From the NCBI GenBank assembly GCA_020697375.1, contig JAJFBJ010000078.1:1-15330 (forward strand): a stretch of DNA of 15,330 nucleotides, in the 5' to 3' direction. Origin of the DNA: Nitrospira sp. GTDB lineage: Bacteria > Nitrospirota > Nitrospiria > Nitrospirales > Nitrospiraceae. Below are positions 1 through 15,330 of the stretch, one piece after another. How positions within the stretch are numbered: the first letter of the stretch is position 1; each line of letters begins with the position of its first letter. The notes below the pieces were generated by a model. It had not been told where the DNA came from. It ran no database searches and saw only the letters and a list, made by a program, of their open reading frames with translations. Both the position numbers and the translations under genes were made by a program.

Positions 1-1
1 T

Positions 2-835: not shown

Positions 836-853
836 CAGGAGTGGACGGCGAAC

Positions 854-1615
854 ATGACGCCATCGGCTGCGAAGTCATCGGGGACGATCATTCATGAGCT
901 GGTAGAACGACAGAAGAATCTTTATGAGGGACCCGAAATCGACGCGAGGCTCGAACGCCTGATTCATGACGTTCCGCATCCCACCTTCTCGTCCTGGGAC
1001 ATCCACCGTCTGTTACGCACCTCCCGAGCGTTGTATTTCGACAGCCATGTGGAAGTGGTTTCAGGCCACCATACGCAAACCTATCTTCGATTCGAGTCCC
1101 TCGTCCGGTTTCCGGAATTCATAACCACCATCGCGAACAACATGGCGGAGTGGATCGTACAGACCTTCCGGCATGAGCCCCCGGCGGGAATCATCACCAC
1201 GTCGTCTGATGCGCGCCTTCTTGCGGAGCGCACGAGTGAAGTCCTGGCCGCGCACATGCCGTTGCGCGTCGTCCTCACGCCGTTCGACGCCCGGACGGGA
1301 AAAATCGGCACCGACATTGTCCGCGGCACAGTCGAATCGGGGGAACGCTTTATCTCCTTGAACGATGTCACGACCCGCGGCATGTGCGTCAGTAAACTCG
1401 GACAAGTCGTCACGGATCGCGGCGGCCAACTCGCGGGCATGATGGTCTTCGCCAGGCGGGACAGCGGGCAATTCCCCTTGATGGACCAATTGACGACAAG
1501 GTATCCGTTTTACTTCAGCGTCGATCTGGACATGCCACAGTGGGAACCGTCCGATTGTCCGCTCTGCAAGGGACCCGAGCCGTTGCTGTCCTGGAAGGAT
1601 CTGCCGGAGCTCTGA
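854..1615 (+). CDS. Phosphoribosyltransferase-like protein, role unknown
   Basis: This 253-residue protein appears to have a type I phosphoribosyltransferase (orotate PRTase-like) core. The central beta-alpha unit reads GIITTSSDARLLAERTSEVL. It is followed by FISLNDVTTRGMCVSKLGQV (N170-D171-V172-T173-T174-R175-G176), which resembles the PRPP-binding loop normally written V-D-D-V-x-T-T-G. The first Asp is replaced by Asn and an Arg sits before the Gly, so the loop is altered. A C-terminal CPLC pair (C235, C238) could hold a metal together with other ligands, but only one CxxC is visible. No signal peptide or membrane segment is seen. AGGAG at 837-841 supports the ATG at 854. It stands between a FAH-family gene and E1-alpha. 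I know of no role for a PRTase in branched-chain catabolism, so it may be a degenerate regulator or a salvage enzyme. Fold assignment is by motif only. Confidence 0.6.
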   Translation: MTPSAAKSSGTIIHELVERQKNLYEGPEIDARLERLIHDVPHPTFSSWDIHRLLRTSRALYFDSHVEVVSGHHTQTYLRFESLVRFPEFITTIANNMAEWIVQTFRHEPPAGIITTSSDARLLAERTSEVLAAHMPLRVVLTPFDARTGKIGTDIVRGTVESGERFISLNDVTTRGMCVSKLGQVVTDRGGQLAGMMVFARRDSGQFPLMDQLTTRYPFYFSVDLDMPQWEPSDCPLCKGPEPLLSWKDLPEL

Positions 1616-1648
1616 GAAGACCTTCATGAAGAGTAAGAGGAGGAGGCT

Positions 1649-2650
1649 ATGGAACAGGCCGCCGTCTCCAAGGACATCAAACGCAGCGACCTTCTAGAGA
1701 TGTACTACTACCTTAGATTGACGAGAAGCTTGGAAGAGAGGATCACGGCCCTCTATCGGCAAGGCCGGATCGTCGGCGGCGTCTATACGAGCCACGGCAT
1801 GGAAGCCATTGCCGTCGGATATGCCTCTGCGTTGAACCCCGATGATGTCATCGCGCCATTTCATCGCGACATGGGAGCGTTCCTGATTCGTGGATTTTCC
1901 CCCGGCGAGGTCGTCGCTCAATACCTCGGCAAGCGGGCAGGGCCCACCAAAGGGAAAGACGGCAACGTCCACATGGGAGACTTGAAACGCGGCATGATCG
2001 GCTTCGTCAGCCACCTGGCCGACAACATGCCGGTCGCGGCAGGCGCGGCGCTGGCCTTCAAGATCAGAGGAGAATCCCGCGTGGCCTTTGCCGGAACCGG
2101 CGACGGCGGGACGAGCCGCGGCGACTTTCATGAAGCCATGAATTTTGCGGCCGCGCGCAGGCTTCCCGTCGTGTTCTTCTGCACCAACAATCAATATGCC
2201 TACTCGACGCCCTTGCGCCATCAAATGGCCATTACCGACGTCGTCGAACGCGCCAAAGCCTACGGCATGCCGGGAGAAATCGTAGACGGCAACGACGTGG
2301 CTGCCGTCTATCTGGCCTCCAAACGCGCCATTGCAAAGGCTCGAGGAGGCGGCGGGCCGACATTCCTGGAATTCAAGACCATGCGCATGCATGGCCACTC
2401 CGAACATGACGCGGCGAAGTATGTCCCGCGCGAGTTGCTGGAAGAATGGACAGCCAAAGATCCGATCCTCAAGGCGGAACAGCTCCTGATGCAACTGGCC
2501 TATGGGGATGAGTCCTATTTTCGCGAAGTCGGCGAACGGGCCAAGAAGGAAGTCGACGCGGGAACGGAATTCGCGGAACAGAGCCCGCTTCCGGAGGGAC
2601 CGGAGACGCTCGTGGGAGTCTTCGCCACAGAGGACGAGGTGCAATCATGA
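1649..2650 (+). CDS. bkdA1: 2-oxoacid dehydrogenase E1 alpha subunit (branched-chain type)
   Basis: This is the thiamine-diphosphate-binding half of the E1 decarboxylase of a 2-oxoacid dehydrogenase complex, acting in the cytoplasm as an alpha2beta2 tetramer. The 333-residue length is normal. The ThDP motif is complete: G151-D152-G153 followed about 27 residues later by N180-N181. The region HRDMGAFLIRGFSPGEV and the late MRMHGHSEHDAAKY, which corresponds to the phosphorylation-loop region of animal enzymes, are also characteristic. A strong purine-rich ribosome site (1636-1646) precedes the ATG. The stop overlaps the E1-beta start as ATGA, so the two subunits are translationally coupled. Pyruvate, acetoin and branched-chain E1 alphas are hard to separate by eye. 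The branched-chain reading rests on the leucine and valine degradation genes downstream. Confidence 0.88.
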   Translation: MEQAAVSKDIKRSDLLEMYYYLRLTRSLEERITALYRQGRIVGGVYTSHGMEAIAVGYASALNPDDVIAPFHRDMGAFLIRGFSPGEVVAQYLGKRAGPTKGKDGNVHMGDLKRGMIGFVSHLADNMPVAAGAALAFKIRGESRVAFAGTGDGGTSRGDFHEAMNFAAARRLPVVFFCTNNQYAYSTPLRHQMAITDVVERAKAYGMPGEIVDGNDVAAVYLASKRAIAKARGGGGPTFLEFKTMRMHGHSEHDAAKYVPRELLEEWTAKDPILKAEQLLMQLAYGDESYFREVGERAKKEVDAGTEFAEQSPLPEGPETLVGVFATEDEVQS

Positions 2651-3639
2651 CGATCACGACCGCCGCGCAAGAGGTCACTTACGTAGAAGCGATCGCCCAG
2701 GCCCTGGACGAAGAAATGAGCCGTGATGAACGGGTATTTCTCCTGGGTGAAGACATCGGCGCCTACGGCGGGGCCTTCAAGGTTACAGAAGGTCTGTTGG
2801 ACAAATATGGAGAATGGCGGGTGCTGGACACGCCGCTTTCGGAATCGGGCTTCGTCGGCGCGGCAATCGGCGCAGCGATGATGGGCCTGCGGCCGGTGGT
2901 TGAAATGCAATTTGCCGATTTCATTTCCTGCGCCTTCGATCAGATCACCGAAGTCGCCGCGAAAAACCACTACCGCTGGGGCGCGGCGGTTCCCATGGTC
3001 ATCCGTGCGCCCTTCGGCGGCGGGGTTCATGGAGGCCCATTTCATTCGGAATGTCCCGAGGGTTGGTTCTTTCATTCACCCGGCCTCAAGCTCGTGGCTC
3101 CCTCGACGCCCTATGACGCCAAGGGACTTTTGAAGGCCGCAATTCGCGATCCCAATCCCGTGCTCTACTTCGAACATAAGTTTCTCTATCGGCGCATCAA
3201 GGCGACCTTGCCGCGGGAAGATTACATCGTCCCTATCGGAAAGGCCGAGGTGAAGCGCATCGGCGGCGACATATCGATCATCACCTATGGGGCGATGGTG
3301 CACCTGGCCCTGGAAGCAGCGGAACTGCTGAGCCAGGAGGGAATCGATCTTGAAGTAGTCGATCTGCGAACGTTGATTCCCCTCGACAAGGAGACGATCT
3401 ACGCATCGGTGCGCAAGACCAGCAAGGCCATCATGCTTCATGAAGACAATAAAACCGGCGGCATCGGAGCCGAGATTTCGTCTCTGTTGGTGGAAGACTG
3501 CTTCGACTGCCTGGATGGACCGATCCTTCGCATCGCTCCCCCGGATACGCCGGTACCGTTCAGCACGCCGTTGGAGGAATTTTTTCTTCCCAAAGTGAGC
3601 GACATCGTAGCGGGGGCAAAAAAATTGGCGGCGTACTAA
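2647..3639 (+). CDS. bkdA2: 2-oxoacid dehydrogenase E1 beta subunit (branched-chain type)
   Basis: This is the E1 partner subunit, 330 residues, which completes the ThDP site and contacts E2. The N-terminal pyrimidine-binding domain shows FLLGEDIGAYGGAF and the glutamate in DTPLSESGFVGAA. The sequence around residue 120 reads GGGVHGGPFHSECPEG, where relatives have HSQSPE. The segment STPYDAKGLLKAAIRDPNP closely resembles remembered branched-chain E1 beta sequences, such as that of Thermus. The C-terminal transketolase-like domain has VVDLRTLIPLD and ends in a typical FFLPKVSDIVAGAKK helix. Its start overlaps the E1-alpha stop by 4 nt, with GAGGTG just upstream as ribosome site. A 52-nt gap holding a hairpin separates it from E2, the first real spacer in the cluster, which might tune E1 relative to E2 output. 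Confidence 0.9.
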   Translation: MTITTAAQEVTYVEAIAQALDEEMSRDERVFLLGEDIGAYGGAFKVTEGLLDKYGEWRVLDTPLSESGFVGAAIGAAMMGLRPVVEMQFADFISCAFDQITEVAAKNHYRWGAAVPMVIRAPFGGGVHGGPFHSECPEGWFFHSPGLKLVAPSTPYDAKGLLKAAIRDPNPVLYFEHKFLYRRIKATLPREDYIVPIGKAEVKRIGGDISIITYGAMVHLALEAAELLSQEGIDLEVVDLRTLIPLDKETIYASVRKTSKAIMLHEDNKTGGIGAEISSLLVEDCFDCLDGPILRIAPPDTPVPFSTPLEEFFLPKVSDIVAGAKKLAAY

Positions 3640-3642
3640 CTC

Positions 3643-3671
3643 GCGTAAAGCGTGAAAGGTCACGTTTACGC
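3643..3671. repeat. Hairpin between E1-beta and E2, built from CGTRAA-type heptamers
   Basis: Left arm 3643-3655 pairs with right arm 3660-3671 to give 12 base pairs with one bulged G (3650) and an AAGG tetraloop. The sequence is made of 7-nt units on both strands (CGTAAAG and CGTGAAA on +; CCTCGCG and CCTCACG at 3671-3684). No T-run follows, so it does not look like an intrinsic terminator. It occupies most of the gap between two genes that must be co-expressed. Possible roles are mRNA stabilisation or processing, or simply a dispersed repeat. Confidence 0.7.
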
Positions 3672-3691
3672 CTCGCGCCTCACGGAGAATT

Positions 3692-4837
3692 ATGGCGACC
3701 GACATCGTCATGCCTCAGCTGGGTGAAAGCATCGCCGAGGGGACCGTCATTAAATGGCTCATCCCTCAAGGCGGCGCGGTCGAGAGGGATCAGCCGCTCC
3801 TCGAGGTGGAAACCGAGAAGGTCGCGCTCGACATTCCCTCCCCTGCCGCAGGGTTCCTCACGGAGATTCTTGTGCCGGAGGGTGAGACGGTTCCGGTGGG
3901 AAGGTTGCTGGCCAGACTCGATAGCCAACCGGTTGCCGGGGTCGTCAATCGGGTCGGAGGGGTGGGTGTGCGTGCGATGGAGGCGGCGCCGGAAGGCGTG
4001 CAGCACTATTCACCCGCGGTACGGCAATTGGCAAGGGAACGAGGAGTGGACCTGGCCAAGGTTACCGGAACCGGCGAGGGCGCCCGAGTCACGAAGAAGG
4101 ATGTGCTGGACGCCATCGCCAAGCATGCAACGACAGACGATACCCCATCTCCTCACGCCTCTCCCCTAACCCCTCACGAAGAACTGTCGCCGCTGACGCA
4201 GATGCGGAAGACCATCGCGGAACGCATGGTCGTGAGCCGCCGCACCGCCGCTCACGTGGCGACCTTCTTCGAGGCGGATTTCTCCGGCGTCGAGACATTT
4301 CGAGCGGGACGTTCGTTGACCTACCTGTCTTTCGTGATCAATGCCGTCACGCGCGCCATGCAAGACCTGCCGTCATTGAATTCCTCCTGGAGCGATCAGG
4401 GACTCGTAATCAAGAGGGACATCCATATGGGCATCGCAGTGGCGCTCGATGAAGGCCTCCTCGTTCCCGTCATTCGCCATGCGGATCGCAAGGGACTGAA
4501 TCAGTTGGCCCATGAAGTGGCGGACCTGGCGGAACGAGCGAGGACCAAGCGGCTCATACCGGAGGAGGTGCGGGACGGCACGTTCACCATTACGAACCAC
4601 GGCGGCTTCGGAAGCCTCTTCAGCACCCCGATCATCAACCAGCCGCAGGCCGCCATTCTTGGACTGGGCTCGGTGCAGAAGCGCGCGCGGGTGATCGACG
4701 ACGCCATCGCGATACGACCCATGTGTTATCTCAGCCTGTCCTTCGACCATCGGATCATCGATGGCGCAACGGCCGATCGTTTCATGGGCAAGGTGAAACA
4801 ACACCTCGAACGGAGCGACTGGGAGAAATTCTTGTGA
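3692..4837 (+). CDS. bkdB: Dihydrolipoyl acyltransferase, E2 of the 2-oxoacid dehydrogenase complex
   Basis: E2 transfers the acyl group from E1 to CoA through a swinging lipoyl arm and forms the core of the complex. Domains in order: one lipoyl domain (about residues 2-78) with the lipoylated lysine K43 in ETEKVALDI; a linker; a peripheral-subunit-binding domain (about 104-142, starting HYSPAVRQLARERG); a second Pro/Ser/His-rich linker (about 147-165); and a CoA-dependent acyltransferase domain to residue 381. The catalytic HRIIDG motif (H353, D357, G358) is intact. A single lipoyl domain and 381 residues are normal for bacterial branched-chain E2. The second linker is encoded by a run of CCTCACG-like heptamers (4151-4178). 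The start at 3692 gives a lipoyl domain beginning in the usual MATDIVMPQLGE manner. E3, needed to reoxidise the lipoyl arm, is not in the window. The stop overlaps the thiolase start. Confidence 0.92.
   Translation: MATDIVMPQLGESIAEGTVIKWLIPQGGAVERDQPLLEVETEKVALDIPSPAAGFLTEILVPEGETVPVGRLLARLDSQPVAGVVNRVGGVGVRAMEAAPEGVQHYSPAVRQLARERGVDLAKVTGTGEGARVTKKDVLDAIAKHATTDDTPSPHASPLTPHEELSPLTQMRKTIAERMVVSRRTAAHVATFFEADFSGVETFRAGRSLTYLSFVINAVTRAMQDLPSLNSSWSDQGLVIKRDIHMGIAVALDEGLLVPVIRHADRKGLNQLAHEVADLAERARTKRLIPEEVRDGTFTITNHGGFGSLFSTPIINQPQAAILGLGSVQKRARVIDDAIAIRPMCYLSLSFDHRIIDGATADRFMGKVKQHLERSDWEKFL
4151..4178 (+). repeat. Four tandem heptamers inside E2, encoding its second linker
   Basis: Four contiguous 7-nt units lie in frame within E2. 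The first (4151-4157) and last (4172-4178) are CCTCACG, and the middle two are diverged copies starting CCT. They encode residues 154-162 and the surrounding Pro/His/Ala/Ser-rich linker between the E3/E1-binding domain and the catalytic domain. The same CCTCACG unit occurs outside genes at 3678-3684. Confidence 0.7.
4821..4825 (+). promoter_or_regulatory. Ribosome binding site setting the thiolase GTG start
   Basis: GGGAG at 4821-4825 lies 8 nt before the GTG at 4834. It supports a GTG start overlapping the E2 stop (GTGA) over an ATG at 4723, which would put about 37 unrelated residues ahead of the conserved thiolase N-terminus. Confidence 0.7.
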
Positions 4838-6015
4838 CCGGACAACGAGCCGTAATCGTGAGCGCAGTCCGGACTCCGATGGGCAGCTTCAACGGCGCCT
4901 ACAGCTCAATCTCTGCGACCGGACTGGGAAGCCTCGTCATTGCGGAAACCCTGCATCGTACCCGTTTGCCGGGCGATCGTATCGACGAAGTGCTCATGGG
5001 ATGCGTCCTCAGCGCGGGGCTCGGCCAGGCCCCTGCCAGGCAAGCGGCGATCGGCGCAGGACTTCCCCACAAGGTCGGAGCCGTCACGGTCAACAAGGTT
5101 TGCGGGTCCAGCCTGCAGACCGTGATCATGGCGGCAAGGGCCATCGCCCTGGGGGAAGCGCAGGTGATGGTGGCAGGCGGGATGGAGAACATGACGCGGG
5201 CTCCGTTCCTACTGGAGAAAGCCAGACAGGGCTATCGCCTGGGCCACGGTGAACTGACGGACAGCCTGATCAAGGACGGGCTCTGGGATGTGTATAACCA
5301 GTTTCATATGGGCAATGCCGGAGAACTGTGCGCCGCCAAGTATCGCTTCTCCAGACAGGAAGTGGATGACTTCGCCTTGGAAAGCTATAGCCGCGCACGC
5401 GAGGCGATCGCGACCGGCGCCTTCAAACGGGAGATCGTGCCGGTCGAGGCGCCTCAGAAGAAAGGATCCCCGGTCATCGTATCGGAGGACGAGGAACCGA
5501 ATCGGGTGGATCCGGCAAGGTTGCCGCAACTCAAGCCCGTTTTTCAGGATGACGGATTATTGACGGTGGGCAATTCACCTTCCTGCAACGACGGAGCTGC
5601 GGCATTGATCGTCATGGCGGAGGAAGAGGCCGGCAAGTTTGGTCTGGCGCCCATGGCCCGCATCGCGGGATATGCAGGCGCCGCGCTCGCGCCCGAATGG
5701 TTCACTGTCGCCCCGGTTGAAGCGATCCGGCGGCTGTTGAAACAAACAGGACTTTCCATCGGCGACATAGACCTGTTCGAAATCAACGAAGCCTTCTCGG
5801 TCGTCTCGCTTGCCATCAATCGCGAGCTTGGGTTGGACCCGAAGAAAGTCAACGTCAACGGCGGCGCGGTGGCGCTGGGCCATCCCATCGGCGCGACCGG
5901 AGCAAGAATCCTCACGACGTTGCTCCATGCCATGGAGGCGCGCGATGCCCGTCGCGGACTAGCGAGCCTCTGCATCGGAGGCGGAGAAGCGCTCGCGCTC
6001 ATCGTGGAGCGATGA
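4834..6015 (+). CDS. Acetyl-CoA acetyltransferase (thiolase)
   Basis: The thiolase cleaves acetoacetyl-CoA (or 2-methylacetoacetyl-CoA) with CoA to acetyl-CoA (plus propionyl-CoA). It is the last beta-oxidation step for carbon coming from valine via butyryl-CoA, or from isoleucine. From the GTG at 4834 it is 393 residues, the usual length for this family. The N-terminus VIVSAVRTPMGSFNG is standard. The nucleophile is C90 in NKVCGSSLQT. The NEAFSVV stretch, the histidine in GGAVALGHPIGATGAR and the second cysteine in CIGGGEALALIVER are all present, so the enzyme should be active. Translation is probably coupled to E2 through a 4-nt overlap. A 100-nt repeat-bearing gap follows. Acetoacetyl-CoA versus 2-methylacetoacetyl-CoA preference cannot be told by eye. 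Confidence 0.92.
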   Translation: MTGQRAVIVSAVRTPMGSFNGAYSSISATGLGSLVIAETLHRTRLPGDRIDEVLMGCVLSAGLGQAPARQAAIGAGLPHKVGAVTVNKVCGSSLQTVIMAARAIALGEAQVMVAGGMENMTRAPFLLEKARQGYRLGHGELTDSLIKDGLWDVYNQFHMGNAGELCAAKYRFSRQEVDDFALESYSRAREAIATGAFKREIVPVEAPQKKGSPVIVSEDEEPNRVDPARLPQLKPVFQDDGLLTVGNSPSCNDGAAALIVMAEEEAGKFGLAPMARIAGYAGAALAPEWFTVAPVEAIRRLLKQTGLSIGDIDLFEINEAFSVVSLAINRELGLDPKKVNVNGGAVALGHPIGATGARILTTLLHAMEARDARRGLASLCIGGGEALALIVER

Positions 6016-6018
6016 GTG

Positions 6019-6096
6019 GGCAAAAGTGAAAGGGTAAAAGTAAAAGGGCCGACGTCAGGAAGCGACGAGTGAAACTTTTGCCTTTTGAATTTTTAC
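6019..6096. repeat. A-rich 7/14-nt direct repeats with an inverted partner in the thiolase-hbd gap
   Basis: Two 13-nt copies, AAAAGTGAAAGGG (6022-6034) and AAAAGTAAAAGGG (6036-6048), differ by one base and repeat with a 14-nt period; each half is itself close to a heptamer. Downstream, 6074-6082 is the exact reverse complement of 6019-6027. In addition, CCTTTT (6081-6086) and TTTTAC (6091-6096) can pair with 6042-6047 and 6034-6039. Two mutually exclusive stems are therefore possible. No clear promoter or terminator was found in this 100-nt gap. Confidence 0.65.
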
Positions 6097-6115
6097 TATT
6101 TACTTCGAGATTGCT

Positions 6116-7000
6116 ATGACCATCGATGACATCAAAACGATCGGGGTCGTGGGCGCGGGGCAGATGGGACGTGGAATCGCACAGGTACTGGCGACTGCCG
6201 GCTGGAATGTTCTGCTGGTGGACGTGACGGAAGAGCTGTTGGAATCTGCCGTCAAGAACATCTGGCAGGGTGTCATGAAGGCGGTGGAGAAGGGAGCGCT
6301 GCGAGGAGATCAGGCTGGATTGGCGATGGCGCGCATCCAGACGCTGCGACAGGTGAAGCATTTGCGAGAGGCGCAGATGGTCATCGAAGCCATACCGGAA
6401 GATCTCGACATGAAACGTGGATTGTTCACGCAACTCGGACAGATCTGCGAACCGTCGGCCTTGCTGGCAAGCAATACGTCTTCGATATCCATTGCGACCT
6501 TGGGCAGGGCATCGGGCCGCCCGGATCGCGTCGTCGGCATCCATTTCATGAATCCGGTTCCCGCCATGCGGCTCGTCGAGATCGTGCGCACAGTCGAGAC
6601 TTCCGAAGATAGCGTGCACCTTGCCCGGGACCTCGTCCGGCGAATGGGCAAAACGCCGGTGATCTGCAAAGATTTTCCCGGTTTCATCGTCAACCGGGTC
6701 CTGATTCCCATGATCAACGAAGCCATCTTTGCGCTGGAGGATGGCGTGGCGTCGGCCGAGGCCATCGATCTCGCAATGGTGGAAGGGACCAACCATCCGA
6801 TGGGACCGTTGGCGTTGGCCGATCGCATCGGCCTGGATACGGTGCTCGCCATTTGCGAGGTTCTGCGCCATGACCTGGATGATCCGAAGTTTCGTCCCTG
6901 TCCCTTGTTGCGAAAATATGTCGAAGCCGGTCGGCTCGGCAGGAAAAGCGGGCAAGGCTTCTATCTCTACGCGGCCCGGACGGCGGTGAATGTGACCTGA
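6116..7000 (+). CDS. hbd: 3-hydroxyacyl-CoA dehydrogenase (3-hydroxybutyryl-CoA dehydrogenase type)
   Basis: This NAD(P)-dependent enzyme oxidises 3-hydroxyacyl-CoA to 3-oxoacyl-CoA, here most likely 3-hydroxybutyryl-CoA to acetoacetyl-CoA. It is 294 residues, a stand-alone bacterial form not fused to a hydratase. The Rossmann motif G13-x-G15-x-M17-G18-x-G20 follows IGVVGAG. The catalytic histidine H143 lies in GIHFMNPVPAMRLVEIV, and the C-terminal domain has DFPGFIVNRVLIPMINEA and the closing RKSGQGFYLY. The ribosome site is weak (GAG at 6107-6109), but the start fits the family N-terminus. It sits after a 100-nt repeat-rich gap and 30 nt before the mutase gene. With the thiolase upstream and the crotonase at 14373 it forms a butyryl-CoA oxidation set lacking only the acyl-CoA dehydrogenase. 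Confidence 0.92.
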   Translation: MTIDDIKTIGVVGAGQMGRGIAQVLATAGWNVLLVDVTEELLESAVKNIWQGVMKAVEKGALRGDQAGLAMARIQTLRQVKHLREAQMVIEAIPEDLDMKRGLFTQLGQICEPSALLASNTSSISIATLGRASGRPDRVVGIHFMNPVPAMRLVEIVRTVETSEDSVHLARDLVRRMGKTPVICKDFPGFIVNRVLIPMINEAIFALEDGVASAEAIDLAMVEGTNHPMGPLALADRIGLDTVLAICEVLRHDLDDPKFRPCPLLRKYVEAGRLGRKSGQGFYLYAARTAVNVT

Positions 7001-7030
7001 CACTCCCCTTCGTCATGGAGGACCTGTGCC

Positions 7031-8626
7031 ATGCGCGAGCGGAAACCTCGATTCAGCTCCCTCTCCGGACTGGACATCGAACGGGTCTACAATCCTGACC
7101 ATCTCAAAGGCTGGAGCGCCGAGCAGGATCTCGGCCAACCGGGCGCATTTCCTTACACGCGCGGTATCCATCCGGCCATGTACCGGAGCCGGCTCTGGAC
7201 CATGCGGCAGTTTGCCGGCTTCGGCTCCGCGGACGATACCAATCAGCGATTCAAATATTTGTTGAAGCAGGGCCAGACCGGGCTCAGTGTCGCCTTCGAC
7301 CTGCCGACGCTCATGGGCCTCGATTCGGACGATCCGATGGCGCGAGGGGAAGTGGGCTACTGCGGCGTGGCGATCTCTTCGCTCGCCGACATGGAACGGC
7401 TTTTCGACGGCATCCCGCTCGATCAGGTCACCACGTCGATGACGATCAACGGACCGGCCGCCGTGATCTTCGCGATGTATCTGGCGATTGCGCAAAAACG
7501 CGGTATCCCATTCGACCGTCTCGGCGGCACGATTCAGAACGATATCCTGAAGGAATATATCGCGCAGAAGGAATGGCTCTTCCCGCCGGAACCACACATC
7601 GCGCTGATCGTCGATACGATCGCCTATTGTACGAGCCACCTTCCGAGGTGGCACCCGATCAGCATCAGCGGGTACCACATCCGCGAGGCCGGGTCCACGG
7701 CAATACAGGAACTTGCCTTTACCCTCTACGATGGGCTTACCTACGTCGAGGCGGCCGTGAAGTCCGGGCTCGACGTGGACGCGTTCGCGCCGCAGCTCTC
7801 CTTCTTCTTCAACGCGCACAATGATTTCTTCGAAGAGATCGCCAAGTTCCGCGCAGCCAGGCGGCTCTGGGCCCGCGAAATGGAGCGGCGCTACCATCCC
7901 AAAAATCCCCGTTCACTCCAACTCCGCTGCCATGCCCAGACGGCCGGTTGCTCCCTCACCGCCCAGCAGCCGATGAACAACGTGGTGCGCACCACGCTCC
8001 AGGCGCTGGCCGCAGTGCTCGGCGGAACCCAATCACTCCACACCAACTCGATGGACGAAACCCTGGCGCTGCCGACTGAAGAAGCCGTGAAACTGGCTCT
8101 CAGAACGCAACAAGTCATCGCCACCGAGAGCGAGACGGTCAACAGCGTCGATCCGTTGGGCGGATCGTATTTTGTTGAGACGTTGACCAATCGGTTGGAA
8201 GAGGGGGCGCTGGAATATTTTCGAAGACTGGATGAGATGGGCGGCATGGTCCACGCGATCGAACAAGGGTTTCCGCAGCGGGAGATCCTGGATGCCTCTC
8301 AGCGGTACCAGCGTGAGTTGGAACAGAAAGAACGAGGCATCGTCGGCGTGACAGAGCATGTGGAACAGGAGAACCGGTCCATCCCCATCTTGAAAATCGG
8401 ACCAGAAGTGGAACAGGAACAGGTCGCTCGCCTGTCCGATTTCAGAAAGGCGCGGGACCCGTTCAAAATGGCAGGCGTGCTGGAGGAATTGCAGGAAATG
8501 GCCGCTTGTCACCAACAGCTCATGCCCCAACTGATAGAAACCGTCAAAGCCAAAGCCACGTTGGGAGAGATATGCGCGGCGCTGAAGGAAGTGTATGGGA
8601 CCTATCGCGAACCGGTGGTGCTATGA
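7031..8626 (+). CDS. icmA: B12-dependent acyl-CoA mutase large subunit, isobutyryl-CoA mutase type
   Basis: This is the substrate-binding TIM-barrel subunit of a coenzyme-B12 mutase, 531 residues with no B12 domain; that domain is the separate gene at 9728. It would normally be named methylmalonyl-CoA mutase. I aligned it by eye to my memory of the Propionibacterium enzyme with a constant offset of 28. Tyr89 becomes F61 (RQFAGF), Arg207 becomes Q179 ([11 protein letters not shown]) and His244 is kept as H216 (SISGYH). Tyr89 and Arg207 bind the methylmalonyl carboxylate. The Phe/Gln pair is the published isobutyryl-CoA mutase pattern, and 2-hydroxyisobutyryl-CoA mutase has Ile instead of Phe. 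The enzyme should therefore interconvert isobutyryl- and n-butyryl-CoA. Isovaleryl/pivalyl-CoA is an alternative substrate pair. A good ribosome site (GGAGG, 7017-7021) precedes the ATG. Confidence 0.88.
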
Positions 8627-8885
8627 AGCGGCGACAACCGGGCGCCTTCCGCGCTCGCGCAACGCGCGGCCTCAGAAGGATGAGACGGGAACCGCCGGAC
8701 CATCCTTCAAAGACACGGCCGGCTCACCGTCTCGCCGGCGTCCACAAGCGTGGCGCTCATTATTCTTCGCGCCGTGGACCTCGCAGAACGCGCACGATAA
8801 GACGGTGCTCGTCCGATGCGCGCAGTGAAGGACAGTCCGGCATTTCCCTTATAGAAATAGAGGGGCAAAGGAAAGATCGATAACG
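8627..8885. other. 259-nt spacer between mutase large subunit and hydrolase genes
   Basis: This is the longest gap in the window. An 86-codon frame begins with an ATG overlapping the mutase stop (ATGA, 8623-8626) and ends at 8883, three bases before the next gene. Its product is very Arg-rich (starting [20 protein letters not shown]), matches no family I know and looks like the translation of GC-rich noncoding DNA. Two short hairpins can form: 8649-8654 with 8664-8669, and 8718-8723 with 8734-8739. Neither is followed by a T-run. I cannot recognise a remnant of another gene, a promoter or a terminator here. Confidence 0.4.
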
Positions 8886-9728
8886 ATGAAACTCGGGGCC
8901 TTTGAAATCCATCCTGTGACCGATGGCCGGTTTCGACTGGACGGCGGCGCCATGTTCGGCGTGGTGCCGAAGGTCCTGTGGCAACGGTGCTGTCCGGCGG
9001 ATGAATCGAATCGCATCCCTCTCAGCCTCACCTGTTTGCTGATCCGGGCGCATGGCAAAAACATTCTGGTGGATACGGGACTGGGCGACAAGGAGGATGC
9101 GAAGTTCCGGTCCATGTTCGCGGTCGAACGAACAGCGACTCTGCAGGAATGCTTGGCACAGCGAGGGCTCAGCCGCAGCGACATTCATATCGTCATCAAT
9201 ACGCATCTCCACTTCGACCATGCCGGGGGGAATACAGTTAGGGAAGGGAACGACGGCGCCCTCATGCCGGCCTTTCCCAAAGCGACCTACTGCGTGCAAC
9301 AGGGAGAATATGACGACGCAGTGCACTCCAATGAACGGACGAGGGCCAGTTACCGCCGTGCCAATTTCACGCCGGTCATGCAGCTGAATCAGTGGGAATT
9401 CCTCCATGGCGATACGGAACTGCTTCCAGGCATCACGACGGTCGTGACGGCCGGACATACGCGCTTCCATCAAAGCGTGAAGGTGGAATCAGAAGGTCGG
9501 GTCGCATTCTTCCTGGGCGACCTCATTCCGACCGTCTCGCATCTGCCGCTGCCTTACATCATGGGTTACGATCTCGATCCCGTTCAAACGCTCGACAGCA
9601 AACGATGGGTGCTCGACCAGGCCTTCGAGGAAAATTGGCTGCTGCTGTTCGAACATGATCCGCTGATCCAGGCCGGCCATGTGAGGAAGGACGCGGAAGG
9701 AAAGTATGTCCTGCAAGAGGTGATGTAA
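8886..9728 (+). CDS. Metallo-beta-lactamase-fold hydrolase
   Basis: This is a 280-residue cytoplasmic protein of the metallo-beta-lactamase superfamily; no signal peptide is seen. The metal-binding signature is complete: H107-x-H109-x-D111-H112 in [12 protein letters not shown]191 in [12 protein letters not shown]212 in FLGDLIPT, and H257 in LLFEHDP. It should bind two metal ions and hydrolyse an ester, thioester or lactone. The substrate is unknown. It sits between the genes for the two mutase subunits and overlaps the small-subunit start by one base, so it is expected to be made together with the mutase. An acyl-CoA thioesterase or a repair or salvage role for a mutase side product would fit, but this is speculation. 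AAAGGAAAG at 8867-8875 serves as ribosome site. Confidence 0.88.
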
Positions 9729-10135
9729 TGACAGTCGCGACGGCTCACATTCGAGTCTTGATCGGGAAGGTGGGATTGGACGGGCATGACCGGGGGGTCA
9801 AACTGGTCGCGCGAGCGCTTCGCGACGCGGGGGTCGAAATCATCTACACCGGCCTCCATCAATCCCCTGAACAGATCGTGGCGACCGCCATCCAGGAAGA
9901 CGTTCAGGCTATCGGCCTCAGCATCCACTCCGGCGCCCATAACTCCCTGTTTCCTCGTGTGCTTGAATTGCTGAAGGAACAGGACGCCGGAGACGTGGCG
10001 CTGTTCGGCGGAGGGATCATTCCCGATGCGGACCTGCCGCGACTGAAGGCAGCCGGCGTGCGCATGCTGTTCCGGCCCGCCACGCCGATGCAGGAGATCG
10101 TGGATTTCGTAAAGGGACTTCCCACTGAGCGTTGA
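9728..10135 (+). CDS. icmB: B12-binding small subunit of the acyl-CoA mutase
   Basis: This 135-residue protein is a stand-alone cobalamin-binding domain of the methylmalonyl/isobutyryl-CoA mutase type. The base-off, His-on motif is D18-x-H20-x-x-G23 ([10 protein letters not shown]), in which H20 would ligate cobalt from below. The later [16 protein letters not shown] and [12 protein letters not shown] segments line the nucleotide tail pocket. The SGAH wording, rather than the AAGH seen in classical methylmalonyl-CoA mutase, seems to accompany isobutyryl-type enzymes, but I hold that loosely. It pairs with the large subunit at 7031 to give the active heteromeric enzyme. Its ATG overlaps the hydrolase stop (TAATG), with AAGAGG just upstream. 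Confidence 0.92.
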
Positions 10136-10148
10136 GAGGAATTTCGTC

Positions 10149-11753
10149 ATGCGGGCACTGAGCACGTCCGTGATTCCTTCCTCAGAAGTGTTCGCGCGCC
10201 ACCGGTCCCATTACGACAGCCTGATGGCAGACCTCAACAAACACCTGTCCATGGTGCAGGCAGGCGGACCGGCGGATGCCGTCGCCCTACACAAGCAACG
10301 CGGGAAACTGACGGCGCGTGAACGTATTGCGGCGCTGCTCGATCCCGGCTCTCCATGGATCGAGCTGAGTCCCCTGGCCGCCTTCGGCCTGTACGATAAC
10401 CAGGTTCCGTCAGCCGGGCTGATTACCGGCATCGGCTCCGTATCGGGACGATACTGCGTCATCGCCGCCAACGACGCCACGGTCAAAGGCGGGACGTACT
10501 TCCCGATGACCATCAAGAAACATCTGCGGGCGCAGGAAATTGCGCTGGAGAACCGGCTGCCGGCGATTTATCTCGTGGATTCCGGCGGCCTGTTCCTGCC
10601 GATGCAGGCCGAGGTCTTTGCGGACAAGGAGCATTTCGGGCGCATCTTTTTCAACCAGGCGCGCATGTCCGCGGCCGGCATCCCGCAAATCGCCCTGGTC
10701 ATGGGCATGTGCACGGCCGGCGGCGCCTATGTGCCGGCCATGTGTGATGAGAATGTCATTGTGAAGGGAACCGGCACGATTTATCTGGCCGGACCGCCGT
10801 TGGTGAAGGCAGCGACCGGCGAAGAAGTCACCAGCGAGGAACTGGGCGGCGCCGATCTGCATACGCGCCTCTCCGGCGTGGGCGACCATCTGGCGCAGGA
10901 CGACCGGGAGGCCTTGGAGATCTGCCGGTCGATCATCGCGACCTTGAGACAGCGACCCGTGGCATTTCGCCGGGAAAGGATCGAGGAACCTCTCTATCCC
11001 GTCGAAGACCTGTATGGAATCATCCCGGATAATCCTCGTCAGAGATGGGAGATCCGGGAGGCGATTGCGCGGCTCGTGGACGGAAGCCGCTTCCACGAGT
11101 TCAAGGCCCGCTACGGTTCCACGCTGGTCTGCGGCTTCGCCCATTGGATAGGCCATCTGGTCGGGATCGTCGCCAACAATGGCGTGTTGCTTTCGGAATC
11201 CGCGCTGAAGGGCACACATTTTGTCCAGCTTTGCGCGCAACGGCGCATTCCACTCGTATTTCTGCAAAACGTCACCGGCTTCATGGTCGGGAAAGATTAT
11301 GAAAGCAGAGGCATCATCAAAGACGGCGCCAAGATGGTGCAGGCGGTCGCGACCGCGGAGGTGCCCAAATTCACAATCCTTGTCGGCGCGTCGCACGGAG
11401 CCGGCAACTATGCCATGTGCGGCCGCGGCTATGGCCCCCGCTTTCTGTTCTGTTGGCCAAGCGCGCGGGTCTCGGTGATGGGCGCGCAACAGGCCGCGCG
11501 GGTGCTGGTCACGGTGAAACAGCAACAGCGGGAGCGTGACAAGGGAACACTATCCGAAGCAGAAGCGCGACGGATCACCGAATCGACCCTGCAGCAATAT
11601 GAAGAGGAAGGCGGCCCCTATTTCAGCAGCGCTCGCCTCTGGGACGACGGCATTCTAGATCCCATGGACACGCGCAAAGTTCTGGGTCTTTGCCTGGATA
11701 TCGCCGCAGGAAGCCCGACAAAAGAAACTCGCGCGCCGGTGTTCCGCATGTGA
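10149..11753 (+). CDS. liuB: Methylcrotonyl-CoA carboxylase carboxyltransferase (beta) subunit
   Basis: This 534-residue acyl-CoA carboxylase carboxyltransferase subunit takes carboxyl from biotin and adds it to 3-methylcrotonyl-CoA, giving 3-methylglutaconyl-CoA in leucine breakdown. Methylcrotonyl-type features include [18 protein letters not shown] near the N-terminus, [48 protein letters not shown] and [14 protein letters not shown]. The C-terminal half has [20 protein letters not shown] and [12 protein letters not shown]. These match my memory of MCC beta better than propionyl-CoA carboxylase beta; geranyl-CoA carboxylase is a close alternative. The following LiuC-like hydratase and HMG-CoA lyase genes favour the leucine role. 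The biotin-carrying alpha subunit, usually adjacent, is absent from the window. GAGAGGA (10134-10140) is the ribosome site. Confidence 0.9.
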
Positions 11754-11779
11754 GCTCGAGAGAAACGAAGGAGCCATCG

Positions 11780-12628
11780 ATGAACCGGTTTACGACGGTC
11801 GCCGTTGAGTCGGATGGCAGCATCGCCCGCGTCACGCTCAACCGGCCTGAACGGCGCAACGCCTTTGATGACCGGATGGTGACGGAGCTCAGTGATGCGT
11901 TCGAAACGCTGGCGCAGGACCAGTCCTTGAGAGGAATCGTGCTGGCCGGGACCGGGCCTGTCTTTTGCGCGGGAGCCGACCTTCAAGGGATGCAGTCTTC
12001 ATCGCCGGTCTCAGAAGCCCAGGCGAAAACCGACGCCCTCCGGCTCACCCGCATGTTTCGCGCCATCGACGAATGCCCCTGTCCGGTGATGGCCCTGGTG
12101 CAGGGCCCTGCCTTCGGAGGCGGGGTCGGATTGATGGCTGTCTGCGACATCGTCGTCGCGGCGGAAGATGCGACGTTCTCGCTCAGCGAGGCCAGGCTGG
12201 GATTGATTCCGGCCGTCATCGCGCCCTTTCTCCTGCGAAAGGCGGGTGAATCGTTTCTTCGACGCTACTGTCTGACCGGCGAGGCATTCAGCGCATCGAT
12301 TGCCCATTGTTTTGGTCTCGTCCATGACGTCGTCCCCCGGAGCGATCTTGACGACAGAATCACCGAATTGATCGAGGCGATCATGCGCCTGGCTCCCCGA
12401 GCTACCAGAGAGAGCAAAACATTGCTTCATACGATCCTTCCCTTGTCCGAAGGGGATCGTTTGAATGCCTGTGCGGAGGCCAACGCCCGCGCTCGTTGCG
12501 CGGCGGAGGCCACGGAAGGACTCCGGGCATTTGTCGAGAAGCGGCTGCCCTCATGGGCCAAACCATGCGAGCCGAAGCCGGATCAGGAGGCGCTCGAGCA
12601 GCAGGATGTCGCAGAACAACGCACATAA
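11780..12628 (+). CDS. liuC: Enoyl-CoA hydratase/isomerase family, probable methylglutaconyl-CoA hydratase
   Basis: This crotonase-fold enzyme is expected to hydrate 3-methylglutaconyl-CoA to HMG-CoA. The ATG at 11780 with GAAGGAG (11767-11773) gives 282 residues starting MNRFTTVAVE; upstream starts would run into the carboxylase gene. The oxyanion-hole segments are GPVFCAGADLQGM and GPAFGGGVGLMAVCDI. Only one catalytic glutamate is present (E137 in LSEARLGL); the other position is G117. The run GLIPAVIAPFLLRKAGES is the form I recall from LiuC-type bacterial methylglutaconyl-CoA hydratases, whereas ordinary hydratases have GLIPG-GGTQRL. Its neighbours, MCC beta upstream and HMG-CoA lyase downstream, are the steps before and after. 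The last roughly 25 residues (Pro/Glu/Gln-rich) extend beyond the usual end and overlap the HMG-CoA lyase start by 23 nt. Confidence 0.85.
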   Translation: MNRFTTVAVESDGSIARVTLNRPERRNAFDDRMVTELSDAFETLAQDQSLRGIVLAGTGPVFCAGADLQGMQSSSPVSEAQAKTDALRLTRMFRAIDECPCPVMALVQGPAFGGGVGLMAVCDIVVAAEDATFSLSEARLGLIPAVIAPFLLRKAGESFLRRYCLTGEAFSASIAHCFGLVHDVVPRSDLDDRITELIEAIMRLAPRATRESKTLLHTILPLSEGDRLNACAEANARARCAAEATEGLRAFVEKRLPSWAKPCEPKPDQEALEQQDVAEQRT

Positions 12629-13556
12629 CTCACACCTATCGCCCGTCAAGATCATCGAGGTGTCGCCGCGGGACGGGTTGCAGAACGAGCCGGAATTCGT
12701 GCCGACGGCGCGCAAGATCGCCTTGATCAATGCCCTGTCACAAACCGGTGTGGCGGAAATCGAAGCAGGCTCATTCGTGTCACCCGCCGCCATCCCGCAG
12801 CTTGCGGATTCCGATGAGGTGTTTCGAGCCATCGAACGGGTTCCGGGAGTCATCTATTCAGCATTGGTCCCGAACGAGCGCGGCCTCGAGCGAGCCAGGG
12901 CAGCGGGGGTGAACAAAATCGCAATCTTTACGGCAGCCTCAAACAGCTTCACGCGCCATAACATCAAGGCGACCGTTCATGAATCCCTCAATCGGTACAG
13001 ACCGATTGTGGCGGCAGCCAAACGGGACGGTCTGGCGGTGCGAGGCTATGTGTCCACCGTGGTGTTTTGTCCGTACGAAGGTCGTATTTCACCGGCCATG
13101 GTGATGGACGTGATGAAGCGATTGCTCGACCTCGGCCTGGACGACATCTCTTTGGGCGAGACCACCGGCAGGGCCTCGCCGCCGGATGTGCGCGCGCTGC
13201 TCGATACCGTATTGTCCCATGTCGGTCAAGCTCGCCTGTCGCTTCATTTCCATGACACCTATGGAATGGCCGTCGCCAATGCGCTCACCGCCTGGTTGGA
13301 CTATGGCATCACCGCTTTCGATTGTTCGGCGGGGGGCCTCGGCGGCTGTCCCTATGCTCCCGGCGCGTCCGGCAATGTCGCAACGGAAGATCTGGTATTC
13401 GCCCTCAAAGCGTCCGGCGCCAGCCTGCCGGTGGATGAAATGCTGGTGACCGCATGTGCGCAACAGCTCAGCGACGCGATCCAGCATCCATTGAGCTCAC
13501 GGCTGTCGAAGATGCCGCATCTGCGGAAGCCTGTTCGTACTGAAGGTGCCGCGTGA
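12606..13556 (+). CDS. mvaB: Hydroxymethylglutaryl-CoA lyase
   Basis: This enzyme splits HMG-CoA into acetyl-CoA and acetoacetate, the last step of leucine degradation. From the ATG at 12606 it is 316 residues, close to the bacterial norm. The DRE-TIM metallolyase signatures are intact: R22-D23 in VSPRDGLQNEPE, the metal-binding H214-F-H216-D in LHFHDTYGMAVANAL, and the lyase-specific glycine loop with C248 in GLGGCPYAPGASGNVATEDL. FTAASNSFTRHNIKAT is also typical. The start lies within the end of the hydratase gene. AGGAGG at 12585-12590 is 15 nt away, rather far, while the nearer AGG at 12603-12605 is too close, so initiation probably depends on coupling to the upstream gene. The stop overlaps the GTG of the next gene (GTGA). 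Confidence 0.93.
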   Translation: MSQNNAHNSHLSPVKIIEVSPRDGLQNEPEFVPTARKIALINALSQTGVAEIEAGSFVSPAAIPQLADSDEVFRAIERVPGVIYSALVPNERGLERARAAGVNKIAIFTAASNSFTRHNIKATVHESLNRYRPIVAAAKRDGLAVRGYVSTVVFCPYEGRISPAMVMDVMKRLLDLGLDDISLGETTGRASPPDVRALLDTVLSHVGQARLSLHFHDTYGMAVANALTAWLDYGITAFDCSAGGLGGCPYAPGASGNVATEDLVFALKASGASLPVDEMLVTACAQQLSDAIQHPLSSRLSKMPHLRKPVRTEGAA

Positions 13557-14371
13557 CTCACGTGTATATCGGCCGGTCATCCAAGGGCGAAGATGCCGCG
13601 ACTCTCGCCTCGCGGGTCATGGGCGGGGAAGTTCGGGCCGTCGCGCGCGTGATTACCCTGCTCGAAAATCAGGACCCGGTCGGAGCGGCGTTGCTGACAT
13701 CCCTGGCCGATTCCGCGAAGCGCGCCATGGTGGTCGGCATCACCGGTTATCCGGGCACAGGCAAAAGTACCTTGGTCGATCGGCTCATCACGGCCTATCG
13801 GCGTATGGGGAAAAGGGTCGCCGTTCTGGCAGTGGACATCAGCAGCCCCGTTACTGGCGGGGCTGTGCTGGGCGACCGCATCAGAATGCAACATCATGCG
13901 ACAGATCCACATGTCTATATCCGAAGCATGGCGACAAGAGGTTATCAAGGCGGGCTCGCAGCGGCAACGCGTGAAGCCTTGCCCGTCCTGGATGCAGCCG
14001 GATATGACGTGATCCTGATCGAGACGGTCGGTGTCGGTCAAAACGAGATCGACATCATGGAGGTGGCCCACAGCACTGTCGCCGTCGTCGCGCCGGGACT
14101 CGGCGATGACATCCAGGCCATGAAGGCTGGTCTGCTGGAAGTCGCCGATATAGTCGTGGTGAACAAATGCGACCGCCCAGGCGCCGAGGCAGCCATACGG
14201 GACCTGCGCGAATGGTTCAACCCCGTCCTGCGCACCGTCGCGTACCAGGGTGAAGGGATTCCTGAACTGATCGCAGTGATCGCCGAATACCACCGGGTCC
14301 GAGACCTCGACAACCGGGCATTGAGCAGCCCTCAACGGGCGGTCCTGGACTATCGGAGCCTGAGAGTGTGA
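13553..14371 (+). CDS. meaB: MeaB/MeaI-type GTPase, chaperone of the B12 mutase (short C-terminus)
   Basis: These G3E P-loop GTPases gate B12 delivery to acyl-CoA mutases and protect them from inactivation. They were long annotated as ArgK kinases. Here a GTG start overlaps the HMG-CoA lyase stop by 4 nt and gives 272 residues. The Walker A motif is G65-YPGTG-K71-S72-T73, switch regions are seen in AVDISSPVTGGAVLGDRIR and RSMATRGYQGGLAAATRE, and the base-recognition motif is N204-K205-C206-D207. Typical homologues are about 310-330 residues with a C-terminal helical dimerisation extension. This one stops soon after GIPELIAVIAEYHRV, and the next gene begins two bases later, so the short end is genuine in this sequence. 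In this context its client is the icmAB mutase. Confidence 0.88.
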   Translation: MTHVYIGRSSKGEDAATLASRVMGGEVRAVARVITLLENQDPVGAALLTSLADSAKRAMVVGITGYPGTGKSTLVDRLITAYRRMGKRVAVLAVDISSPVTGGAVLGDRIRMQHHATDPHVYIRSMATRGYQGGLAAATREALPVLDAAGYDVILIETVGVGQNEIDIMEVAHSTVAVVAPGLGDDIQAMKAGLLEVADIVVVNKCDRPGAEAAIRDLREWFNPVLRTVAYQGEGIPELIAVIAEYHRVRDLDNRALSSPQRAVLDYRSLRV

Positions 14372-14372
14372 C

Positions 14373-15155
14373 ATGATGCCGCATGCGCTGCTGACCATCT
14401 CACAACACATCGCGAGGATCACCCTCCACAACCCTCCGGCCAATGTCCTGCATTCGACCGTACTGCATGAACTTGAGCGTTGTTGGGGGGAGGTGGAAAA
14501 CAATTCCGATGTCCAGGTCGTCATCCTGACCGGGTCCGGCCGCTTTTTTTGCGCCGGAGCCGACGTTCATGAATTGACGCAGTTGAACAGCATCCAGGCG
14601 GGGACCGAGTTTTCCCTTCGTGGACAAGCCCTGTTCAACCGCATCGAATGTTCCGGCAAACCGGTCCTGGCGGCGATCAACGGAGCCTGCGTCGGCGGGG
14701 GACTCGAGCTGGCCCTGGCCTGCCACATCAGAATCGCCGCGATGGATGCCCTCTTCGGCCTGCCCGAAGTCACACTCGGTCTCATCCCAGGGTTCGGCGG
14801 CACCCAACGGCTCCCGGGCGTCGTCGGACCATCCAAAGCCGCGGAGATGATTCTGACGGGCCAACGCGTCACGGCGGAAGAAGCCTTGAAGATCGGTTTG
14901 GTCAGTCGAATCGTCCCGAGCCAGGAGTTATTAGCCCAGGCGGAAACCATCGCAAGCCTGATGACGGCAAACGGAATCCCGGCGACCCAGGCCGCCCTTC
15001 AGACAATCAGAGAGGGGCGAGAAATTCCATGGACGGAAGGCCTCGCCAGGGAAGCGCGACTGTTCGGACAGCTTTGTGTGACTGCGGAAAAGCAGGCAGC
15101 GACCCTGGCGTTCCTCGACAAACGGAAACCGAGATTGGCTGGAACGGAGGCGTAG
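14373..15155 (+). CDS. Enoyl-CoA hydratase (crotonase type)
   Basis: This 260-residue crotonase-fold hydratase adds water to a 2-enoyl-CoA, plausibly crotonyl-CoA to 3-hydroxybutyryl-CoA. It has both catalytic glutamates of classical hydratases, E112 in GGGLELALACHI and E132 in GLPEVTLGLIPG, spaced 20 residues apart as in the rat enzyme (144/164). The oxyanion-hole segment GRFFCAGADVHEL and the GFGGTQRLPGVVG run are standard. It would link acyl-CoA dehydrogenation to the 3-hydroxyacyl-CoA dehydrogenase encoded at 6116. Two ATG codons in tandem (14373 and 14376) are possible starts; GAGAG at 14362-14366 suits either. It begins 1 nt after the GTPase stop. Other short-chain enoyl-CoA substrates, such as methacrylyl- or tiglyl-CoA, cannot be excluded. 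Confidence 0.9.
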   Translation: MMPHALLTISQHIARITLHNPPANVLHSTVLHELERCWGEVENNSDVQVVILTGSGRFFCAGADVHELTQLNSIQAGTEFSLRGQALFNRIECSGKPVLAAINGACVGGGLELALACHIRIAAMDALFGLPEVTLGLIPGFGGTQRLPGVVGPSKAAEMILTGQRVTAEEALKIGLVSRIVPSQELLAQAETIASLMTANGIPATQAALQTIREGREIPWTEGLAREARLFGQLCVTAEKQAATLAFLDKRKPRLAGTEA

Positions 15156-15159
15156 CATC

Positions 15160-15330
15160 ATGGCGGGTGGGAGGACAGTGGCGCATCACCTTGCCGGTTA
15201 TACCCAGACAGTCTGTTACGATGATCTTCCGAGCGCCGTCGTGCATGAGGTCAAACGGCGGATCTTGGACAGCCTCGGCTGCGCATTCGGCGCATGGAAC
15301 GCGGCTCCCTGCAAGATCGCGCGCCAAGTG
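15160..15330 (+). CDS. MmgE/PrpD family protein, N-terminal part (runs off the window)
   Basis: Only 57 codons are visible. They translate to a protein beginning MAGGRTVAHHLAGYTQ, with DDLPSAVVHEVKRRILDSLG and then CAFGAWNAAPCKIARQV. The pattern of a short helix, DLP, helix and DSLGCA is the standard N-terminus of the MmgE/PrpD family, which includes 2-methylcitrate dehydratase and cis-aconitate decarboxylase. GGAGG at 15146-15150 is well placed, and the gene follows the hydratase stop by 4 nt, so it belongs to the same operon. If it is a methylcitrate dehydratase it could handle propionyl-CoA from isoleucine, but the family is broad and the catalytic part lies outside the window. Confidence 0.85.
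   Translation, partial: MAGGRTVAHHLAGYTQTVCYDDLPSAVVHEVKRRILDSLGCAFGAWNAAPCKIARQV

Follow-up and report, generated by a model that had tools for sequence, protein, structure and literature searches.

A Candidate Stand-Alone Isobutyryl-CoA Mutase in a Nitrospira Gene Row

Results

A stretch of 15,330 nucleotides from Nitrospira sp. (contig JAJFBJ010000078.1, positions 1 to 15,330 of the forward strand; hereafter the window) encodes the two subunits of a B12-dependent acyl-coenzyme A (acyl-CoA) mutase. The large subunit, of 531 amino acids (7031..8626, on the plus strand like all genes described here), is of the Phe/Gln, or isobutyryl-CoA mutase, type. The B12-binding small subunit, of 135 amino acids (9728..10135), matches TIGR00640 above its cut-off (142 bits), has the small subunit of 2-hydroxyisobutyryl-CoA mutase (HCM; 4r3u_C) as its top match in the PDB, and carries a DxHxxG motif in the form DGHDRG (9779-9796). 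A MeaB-type G-protein chaperone with the P-loop GYPGTGKST is encoded further downstream (13553..14371; TIGR00750, 290 bits, above cut-off; PF03308). The B12-binding domain, the G-domain, and the mutase domain occupy three separate open reading frames (ORFs), an arrangement distinct from the single fused chain of the isobutyryl-CoA mutase IcmF.

The preliminary description of this DNA had read the enzyme as an isobutyryl-CoA mutase rather than a methylmalonyl-CoA mutase (MCM), based on Phe61 and Gln179 in the places of Tyr89 and Arg207 of the Propionibacterium shermanii MCM. The codons (TTT, 7211..7213, and CAG, 7565..7567, respectively) bear out both assignments, and HMMER alignments to solved structures place Phe61 opposite the Tyr (RQYAGF) and Gln179 opposite the Arg (MVRNT) of human and Mycobacterium tuberculosis MCM; Tyr/Arg at both sites arose in none of the alignments made of the window protein. 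The P. shermanii row of the structure alignment is 5req, an engineered Y89F mutant of an enzyme whose wild-type residue we take to be Tyr89. His216 (CAC, 7676..7678) was correctly equated with the catalytic His244 of P. shermanii MCM, and the supposedly constant offset of 28 between the two numberings holds through His244, beyond which it is 27, with a one-residue gap in the P. shermanii sequence. In the fused IcmF (4xc6), Phe and Gln occupy the same two sites at chain positions 618 and 762 of 1113 residues, as matched to the window through a fused relative (L104) in the alignment; less 20, for an entry numbering that ends at 1093, these are Phe598 and Gln742, which we take to be the published specificity determinants of IcmF. 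The window enzyme has Phe and Gln at both specificity-determining sites in place of the Tyr/Arg carboxylate ligands of MCM, and is equipped with the catalytic His and with a B12-binding partner subunit.

How general is this pair of residues? We examined two sets of relatives, comprising 120 listed homologues of 8000 scored and 80 loci from other genomes, none of them named Nitrospira, that were retained from at least 597 matches to six search patterns. Phe/Gln (F/Q) is present in all 120 homologues, and the 80 loci divide into 63 F/Q genes, 17 Tyr/Arg (Y/R) genes, and no mixed pair, a ratio that is not a measure of prevalence or abundance because one of the search patterns, IAQKEWLF, contains Gln179 and biases the sample to F/Q. 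With F/Q invariant among the homologues and mixed pairs absent from the loci, the two residues are not there by chance. The catalytic His is kept throughout, in 120 of 120 homologues and 80 of 80 loci. Only columns 61 and 179 of the 531 separate the F/Q and Y/R groups of the 80 loci perfectly; columns 180 (Lys versus Gly), 94 (Leu versus Gln), and 228 (Leu versus Val) come next, and the window residue is of the F/Q type at all five. Lys180 (7568..7570) is shared by 60 of the 63 F/Q loci and replaced by Gly in all 17 Y/R loci, and Leu94 (7310..7312) is shared by 56 of the 63, with Gln in all 17 Y/R loci and His in the human, M. tuberculosis, and P. shermanii MCM. One locus, from an uncultured archaeon (L055), entered the residue counts, trees, and neighbourhood tallies as a 419-residue ORF piece and was omitted from the structure alignment; its translated mutase match (L055:10001-11581) contains one stop codon. 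The window protein has His47 and Ala49 (7169-7177) opposite Tyr75 and Thr77 of P. shermanii MCM; the homologues have Tyr at the former in 95 and Thr at the latter in 105 of 120 cases, and His47 is frequent in other F/Q loci (37/63).

The organism names found among the 120 homologues are Nitrospira, Nitrospiraceae, Nitrospirae, or Nitrospirota only, and most of their source names are methylmalonyl-CoA mutase. Among the matches listed, the nearest homologue is 94% identical to the window protein and the nearest with an organism name 87%. A mutase search in two phyla returned matches in 36 of 60 genomes of one and 31 of 39 of the other, none above 66% identity, and viral contigs, scanned once, yielded no relative. 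The 63 F/Q relatives among the loci span at least 23 named phyla.

For the phylogeny, quick trees were made of 100 rows with columns 61 and 179 removed: the window, the 80 loci, 10 of the 120 homologues (five named as Nitrospira or Nitrospiraceae, five lacking an organism name), and nine references. The tree with characterised mutases that had been envisaged for this enzyme was realised with MCM, HCM, and Xaut_5043, but without the IcmA of Streptomyces cinnamonensis or ethylmalonyl-CoA mutase; the rows also omit IcmF and the fused references L103 (22% identity, not used) and L104. The window groups with the ten homologues (11 rows, 100*), and next to this Nitrospira-like group stands a locus from a Bdellovibrionales metagenome-assembled genome (MAG), L035 (support 90). 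A branch with a Shimodaira–Hasegawa-like approximate likelihood ratio (SH-aLRT) of 64, or 85 without the long row of pivalyl-CoA mutase (PCM), sets the Y/R rows apart, with the MCM of human, M. tuberculosis, and P. shermanii among them; the window falls outside this branch, in agreement with the preliminary description. Forcing the 11 Nitrospira-like rows to join those with Tyr/Arg carries a penalty of 34.8 log units (approximately unbiased test, p-AU 0.035). Tree support for a separation from MCM is hence moderate but not decisive. The three HCM references form a branch of their own (100*). In the unrooted tree, F/Q does not make up one clade; it forms the background from which the Y/R and HCM branches emerge, and could thus represent the older condition.

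The genes near the two kinds of mutase differ in the expected direction, with p values that are optimistic because the loci are related to each other. Epimerase-like genes accompany 11 of the 17 Y/R mutases versus 3 of the 63 F/Q ones (Fisher p 3e-7), and 10 of 14 versus 3 of 50 when the count is limited to the 64 loci that span 10 kb or more; the 2 of the 11 Y/R epimerases that were checked, and all 3 F/Q ones, score above the TIGR03081 curated cut-off. In one of these three F/Q loci, L064, a second mutase, with Tyr/Arg, lies directly upstream of the epimerase. That stretch, from an Anaerolinea MAG (L064:7563-13163), continues from the Y/R mutase and the epimerase to the F/Q mutase with its small subunit and MeaB, so that both kinds stand side by side in one organism. 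Carboxyltransferase genes are found near 11/17 Y/R versus 7/63 F/Q mutases, and the reverse is seen for acyl-CoA dehydrogenase (22/63 F/Q versus 0/17 Y/R, p 0.004). At least three of the four kinds dehydrogenase, hydratase, 3-hydroxybutyryl-CoA dehydrogenase, and thiolase occur near 10/63 F/Q and 0/17 Y/R mutases; fewer than two occur at 50/63 F/Q loci. The row of L035 combines a 3-hydroxybutyryl-CoA dehydrogenase (429 bits, above cut-off), an enoyl-CoA hydratase, an acyl-CoA dehydrogenase, the F/Q mutase, and the B12 subunit, which is, thiolase excepted, the gene set that a conversion of isobutyryl-CoA through butyryl-CoA needs. In the anammox bacterium Candidatus Scalindua rubra (L001:4253-11293), an F/Q mutase lies beside homologues of the hydratase, the thiolase, and the 3-hydroxybutyryl-CoA dehydrogenase.

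In the window itself, 15 plus-strand genes run from 20 to 15155, the first of which may start upstream of the window. With the starts chosen, neighbouring genes overlap or lie at most 100 bases apart, apart from a gap of 259 bases after the mutase large subunit, and the row is presumably transcribed as one unit. It opens with an FAA hydrolase family gene (from 20) and a PyrE-like, phosphoribosyltransferase-related gene (854-1615; TIGR01367, 50 bits against a cut-off of 150, and no Pfam match at E 0.001). A 2-oxo acid dehydrogenase complex follows, with E1 alpha (1649..2650; PDB 1um9, 183 bits, ahead of pyruvate dehydrogenase E1 at 165 and branched-chain E1 at 152), E1 beta (2647..3639; 1um9_B, 327 bits, ahead of the pyruvate dehydrogenase 1ik6 at 320 and branched-chain E1 beta at 273), and the lipoyl acyltransferase E2 (3692..4837), whose top PDB match is a pyruvate dehydrogenase E2. 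Homologues of these E1 and E2 genes were found in none of the 80 loci, and their link to the mutase is seen in the window only. Between the complex and the mutase lie an acetyl-CoA C-acyltransferase, or thiolase (4834..6015; TIGR01930, 453 bits, above cut-off; GTG start at 4834 chosen by context), and a gene of the 3-hydroxybutyryl-CoA dehydrogenase type (6116..7000; NF004474, 372 bits, below the cut-off of 408; top PDB matches to 3-hydroxybutyryl-CoA dehydrogenases).

Downstream of the small subunit, a carboxyltransferase of the methylcrotonyl-CoA carboxylase type (10149..11753) scores 716 bits against 9tps (named propionyl-CoA carboxylase beta), 708 against 8j4z (methylcrotonyl-CoA carboxylase beta), and 281 against further propionyl-CoA carboxylase beta entries such as 1vrg. 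An enoyl-CoA hydratase family gene (11780..12628, ATG at 11780; NF005675, 239 bits, below the cut-off of 350), possibly a methylglutaconyl-CoA hydratase to judge from the adjoining leucine genes, precedes a hydroxymethylglutaryl-CoA (HMG-CoA) lyase (12606..13556; NF004283, 382 bits, above cut-off; ATG start at 12606 chosen). After the MeaB gene the row closes with a gene of the short-chain enoyl-CoA hydratase (crotonase) type (14373..15155; NF005803, 289 bits against a cut-off of 313). A gene for a metallo-beta-lactamase-fold hydrolase resembling the lactonase YtnP (8886..9728; PF00753; NF047919, 203 bits against a cut-off of 425) sits between the two mutase subunit genes and may serve the pathway as a thioesterase or lactonase; a 40% match to it lies downstream of the small subunit gene in another locus (L016). 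NCBIfam matched none of the 15 genes in this 15 kb window to a methylmalonyl-CoA epimerase, and Rfam at gathering thresholds detected no RNA family, and hence no B12 riboswitch, in the window.

Discussion

Our analyses of the residues, family, phylogeny, and gene neighbourhood of the window mutase are direct observations, from which we infer its substrate, direction, and pathway. We propose that the genes at 7031-8626 and 9728-10135 probably encode a stand-alone, adenosylcobalamin-dependent isobutyryl-CoA mutase through which carbon from valine passes by way of butyryl-CoA. Phe61 and Gln179 would replace the Tyr/Arg pair that grips the free carboxylate of methylmalonyl-CoA, so that the pocket would suit a plain alkyl group, and His216 together with the B12 subunit would retain the radical chemistry, the MeaB chaperone (13553-14371) presumably loading the enzyme. 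In this model, valine-derived 2-oxoisovalerate would be converted to isobutyryl-CoA by the 2-oxo acid dehydrogenase and then to n-butyryl-CoA by the mutase, with B12 held on the small subunit. An acyl-CoA dehydrogenase encoded outside the window would oxidise n-butyryl-CoA, and the crotonase, dehydrogenase, and thiolase of the gene row would carry crotonyl-CoA through 3-hydroxybutyryl-CoA and acetoacetyl-CoA to two molecules of acetyl-CoA. Leucine carbon may be handled alongside by the methylcrotonyl-CoA-carboxylase-type subunit and the HMG-CoA lyase. At the level of sequence, the preliminary reading as an isobutyryl-CoA mutase and not an MCM is the best supported by residues, tree, and gene neighbourhoods.

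Several observations weigh against this proposal. The tree contains MCM, HCM, and Xaut_5043 references but no characterised isobutyryl-CoA mutase, and the support for its Y/R branch is unstarred and comes from quick trees only. The NCBIfam assignments of the window's 15 genes include neither an acyl-CoA dehydrogenase nor a biotin carboxylase. Since E2 scores best against pyruvate dehydrogenase E2, and both E1 subunits, after 1um9, score higher against pyruvate dehydrogenases than against branched-chain enzymes, a branched-chain substrate of the complex is not established, and the carboxyltransferase has a propionyl-CoA carboxylase beta as its top match, methylcrotonyl-CoA carboxylase being nearly equal. 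In the wider sample, two F/Q loci (L004 and L018) have an epimerase but a single mutase within the DNA retrieved, and the difference in any of hydratase, 3-hydroxybutyryl-CoA dehydrogenase, or thiolase (19/63 F/Q versus 1/17 Y/R) reaches only p 0.057. A predicted structure, poor when made with 28 close sequences (predicted local distance difference test score, pLDDT, 54.6) and good with 68, did not separate the types by fold, HCM and MCM ranking above IcmF. Furthermore, tryptone without nitrite did not sustain growth of N. marina, which is reported to use it as a source of amino acids and not of energy (PMC8115632), so that there is no support in that species for energy gain by oxidising amino acids.

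Other substrates and directions have to be considered. The preliminary description allowed for either an isobutyryl/n-butyryl or an isovaleryl/pivalyl rearrangement; we favour the former, and consider a larger branched acyl-CoA (isovaleryl-CoA, giving pivalyl-CoA, or 2-methylbutyryl-CoA) unlikely to be the main substrate. Leucine-type genes do share the row with the mutase, and an IcmF with Phe/Gln accepts isovaleryl- and pivalyl-CoA besides the isobutyryl pair, according to one report (PMC10481361). Nevertheless, isovaleryl-CoA seems to have a route of its own, by way of the carboxylase subunit and the HMG-CoA lyase, and we recognised no gene for the use of pivalyl-CoA in the window. The isovaleryl/pivalyl pair is also made less likely as the main substrate by Xaut_5043, presumably a pivalyl-CoA mutase, which has Leu/Asn with further changes and is 34% identical to the window protein. 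As improbable, in our estimate, is a reaction running in reverse, in which butyryl-CoA would give isobutyryl-CoA to prime the synthesis of branched fatty acids. Such enzymes interconvert the two compounds, and the Streptomyces one is credited with providing building blocks for polyketides (PMC2847961), but the catabolic-type row (2-oxo acid dehydrogenase, HMG-CoA lyase, thiolase) could already yield isobutyryl-CoA, and no fatty acid synthesis gene is named among the 15 window genes.

Could the enzyme be one of the other well-known mutases? We regard a true MCM that tolerates Phe/Gln as very unlikely. The idea draws on the source names of most homologues and on the match to TIGR00641, a family model named for MCM though generic to the subfamily, and the P. 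shermanii enzyme carrying Y89F has, by the title of its entry, been solved with substrate. Against it, both carboxylate ligands are gone together in all homologues and in 63 of the 80 loci, and Tyr/Arg serves as the mark of MCM in PMC7238569, which cites Jost et al. for the two specificity sites. The position of the window mutase outside the MCM branch and the scarcity of epimerases, found near just 3 of 63 F/Q genes, also speak against it. An HCM is the least probable reading of all: in all three HCM references the positions of window Phe61 and Ala88 are taken by Ile and Asp, and these references branch separately. Membership of this group was considered and rejected, as the Ile90/Asp117 pair of the HCM pocket is absent from the window, where Ala88 (7292..7294) occupies the Asp site.

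What would an isobutyryl-CoA mutase mean for Nitrospira? The need for B12 would be unchanged, but the metabolism would differ, with valine leading to acetyl-CoA and no entry into methylmalonyl-CoA through this enzyme. The two-residue rule marks 63 of the 80 fetched relatives as probably not MCM. The kind of enzyme and its misnaming are already known, the latter having been published for IcmF (PMC7764203); what is new is to meet it in this organism and in this row of genes. The literature counts an MCM with the B12-dependent enzymes that N. marina encodes (PMC8115632), lists mcmA1A2 among the acid-resistance genes of strain NS4 (PMC12542776), mentions mutA in soil MAGs from a set including comammox Nitrospira (PMC11865330), and notes a beta-oxidation gene set in some Nitrospira (PMC5596200). 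The homologue of Nitrospira sp. NS4 (P0092), an 'acyl-CoA mutase large subunit family protein', has Phe/Gln, and we infer that it is the mcmA1 of the NS4 paper. In the titles and abstract openings of the papers listed, a coverage that includes few subscription journals, we found no assignment of isobutyryl-CoA mutase to Nitrospira. We tentatively extend the proposal, at somewhat less than even confidence, to the genus including comammox members: its sole mutase of this kind might be an isobutyryl-CoA mutase, the published Nitrospira MCM being the same enzyme, with no methylmalonyl-CoA pathway and with valine passing via butyryl-CoA to acetyl-CoA in place of the 3-hydroxyisobutyrate route. The same may apply to anammox Scalindua, for whose sediment members PMC11104535 mentions an MCM.

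Among the known systems, MCM (P. shermanii, human, and M. tuberculosis) shares about 45% identity and the catalytic His with the window protein, and its B12-binding domain is related to the window small subunit, but it has Tyr/Arg for Phe/Gln, Asn for Lys180, and His for Leu94 and belongs to a separate branch; many Tyr/Arg relatives (11 of 17) also have an epimerase nearby. HCM (4r3u; we take the Methylibium PM1 and Xaut_5021 references to be of this type) is closer in sequence, at 49 to 51% identity, with split subunits and Gln at the second site, and differs in the Ile for Phe61, the Asp for Ala88, and its gene neighbours. Xaut_5043 of Xanthobacter autotrophicus Py2, which we take to be a native pivalyl-CoA mutase, shares the family and the split subunits; a pivalyl-CoA mutase was nonetheless rejected as a candidate, its pocket having Leu/Asn in place of Phe/Gln. 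IcmF of Cupriavidus metallidurans (4xc6/5cjt) has the same residues at both sites but is one fused chain, where the window has three separate genes; identity to IcmF is 38%, and the match to the IcmF model NF045497 is partial, with 358 bits where the cut-off is 1500. IcmA/IcmB of S. cinnamonensis, a stand-alone isobutyryl-CoA mutase, shares the two-subunit layout and Phe/Gln, and the window mutase differs from it by its place, together with MeaB, in an apparent row for the oxidation of branched-chain acids.
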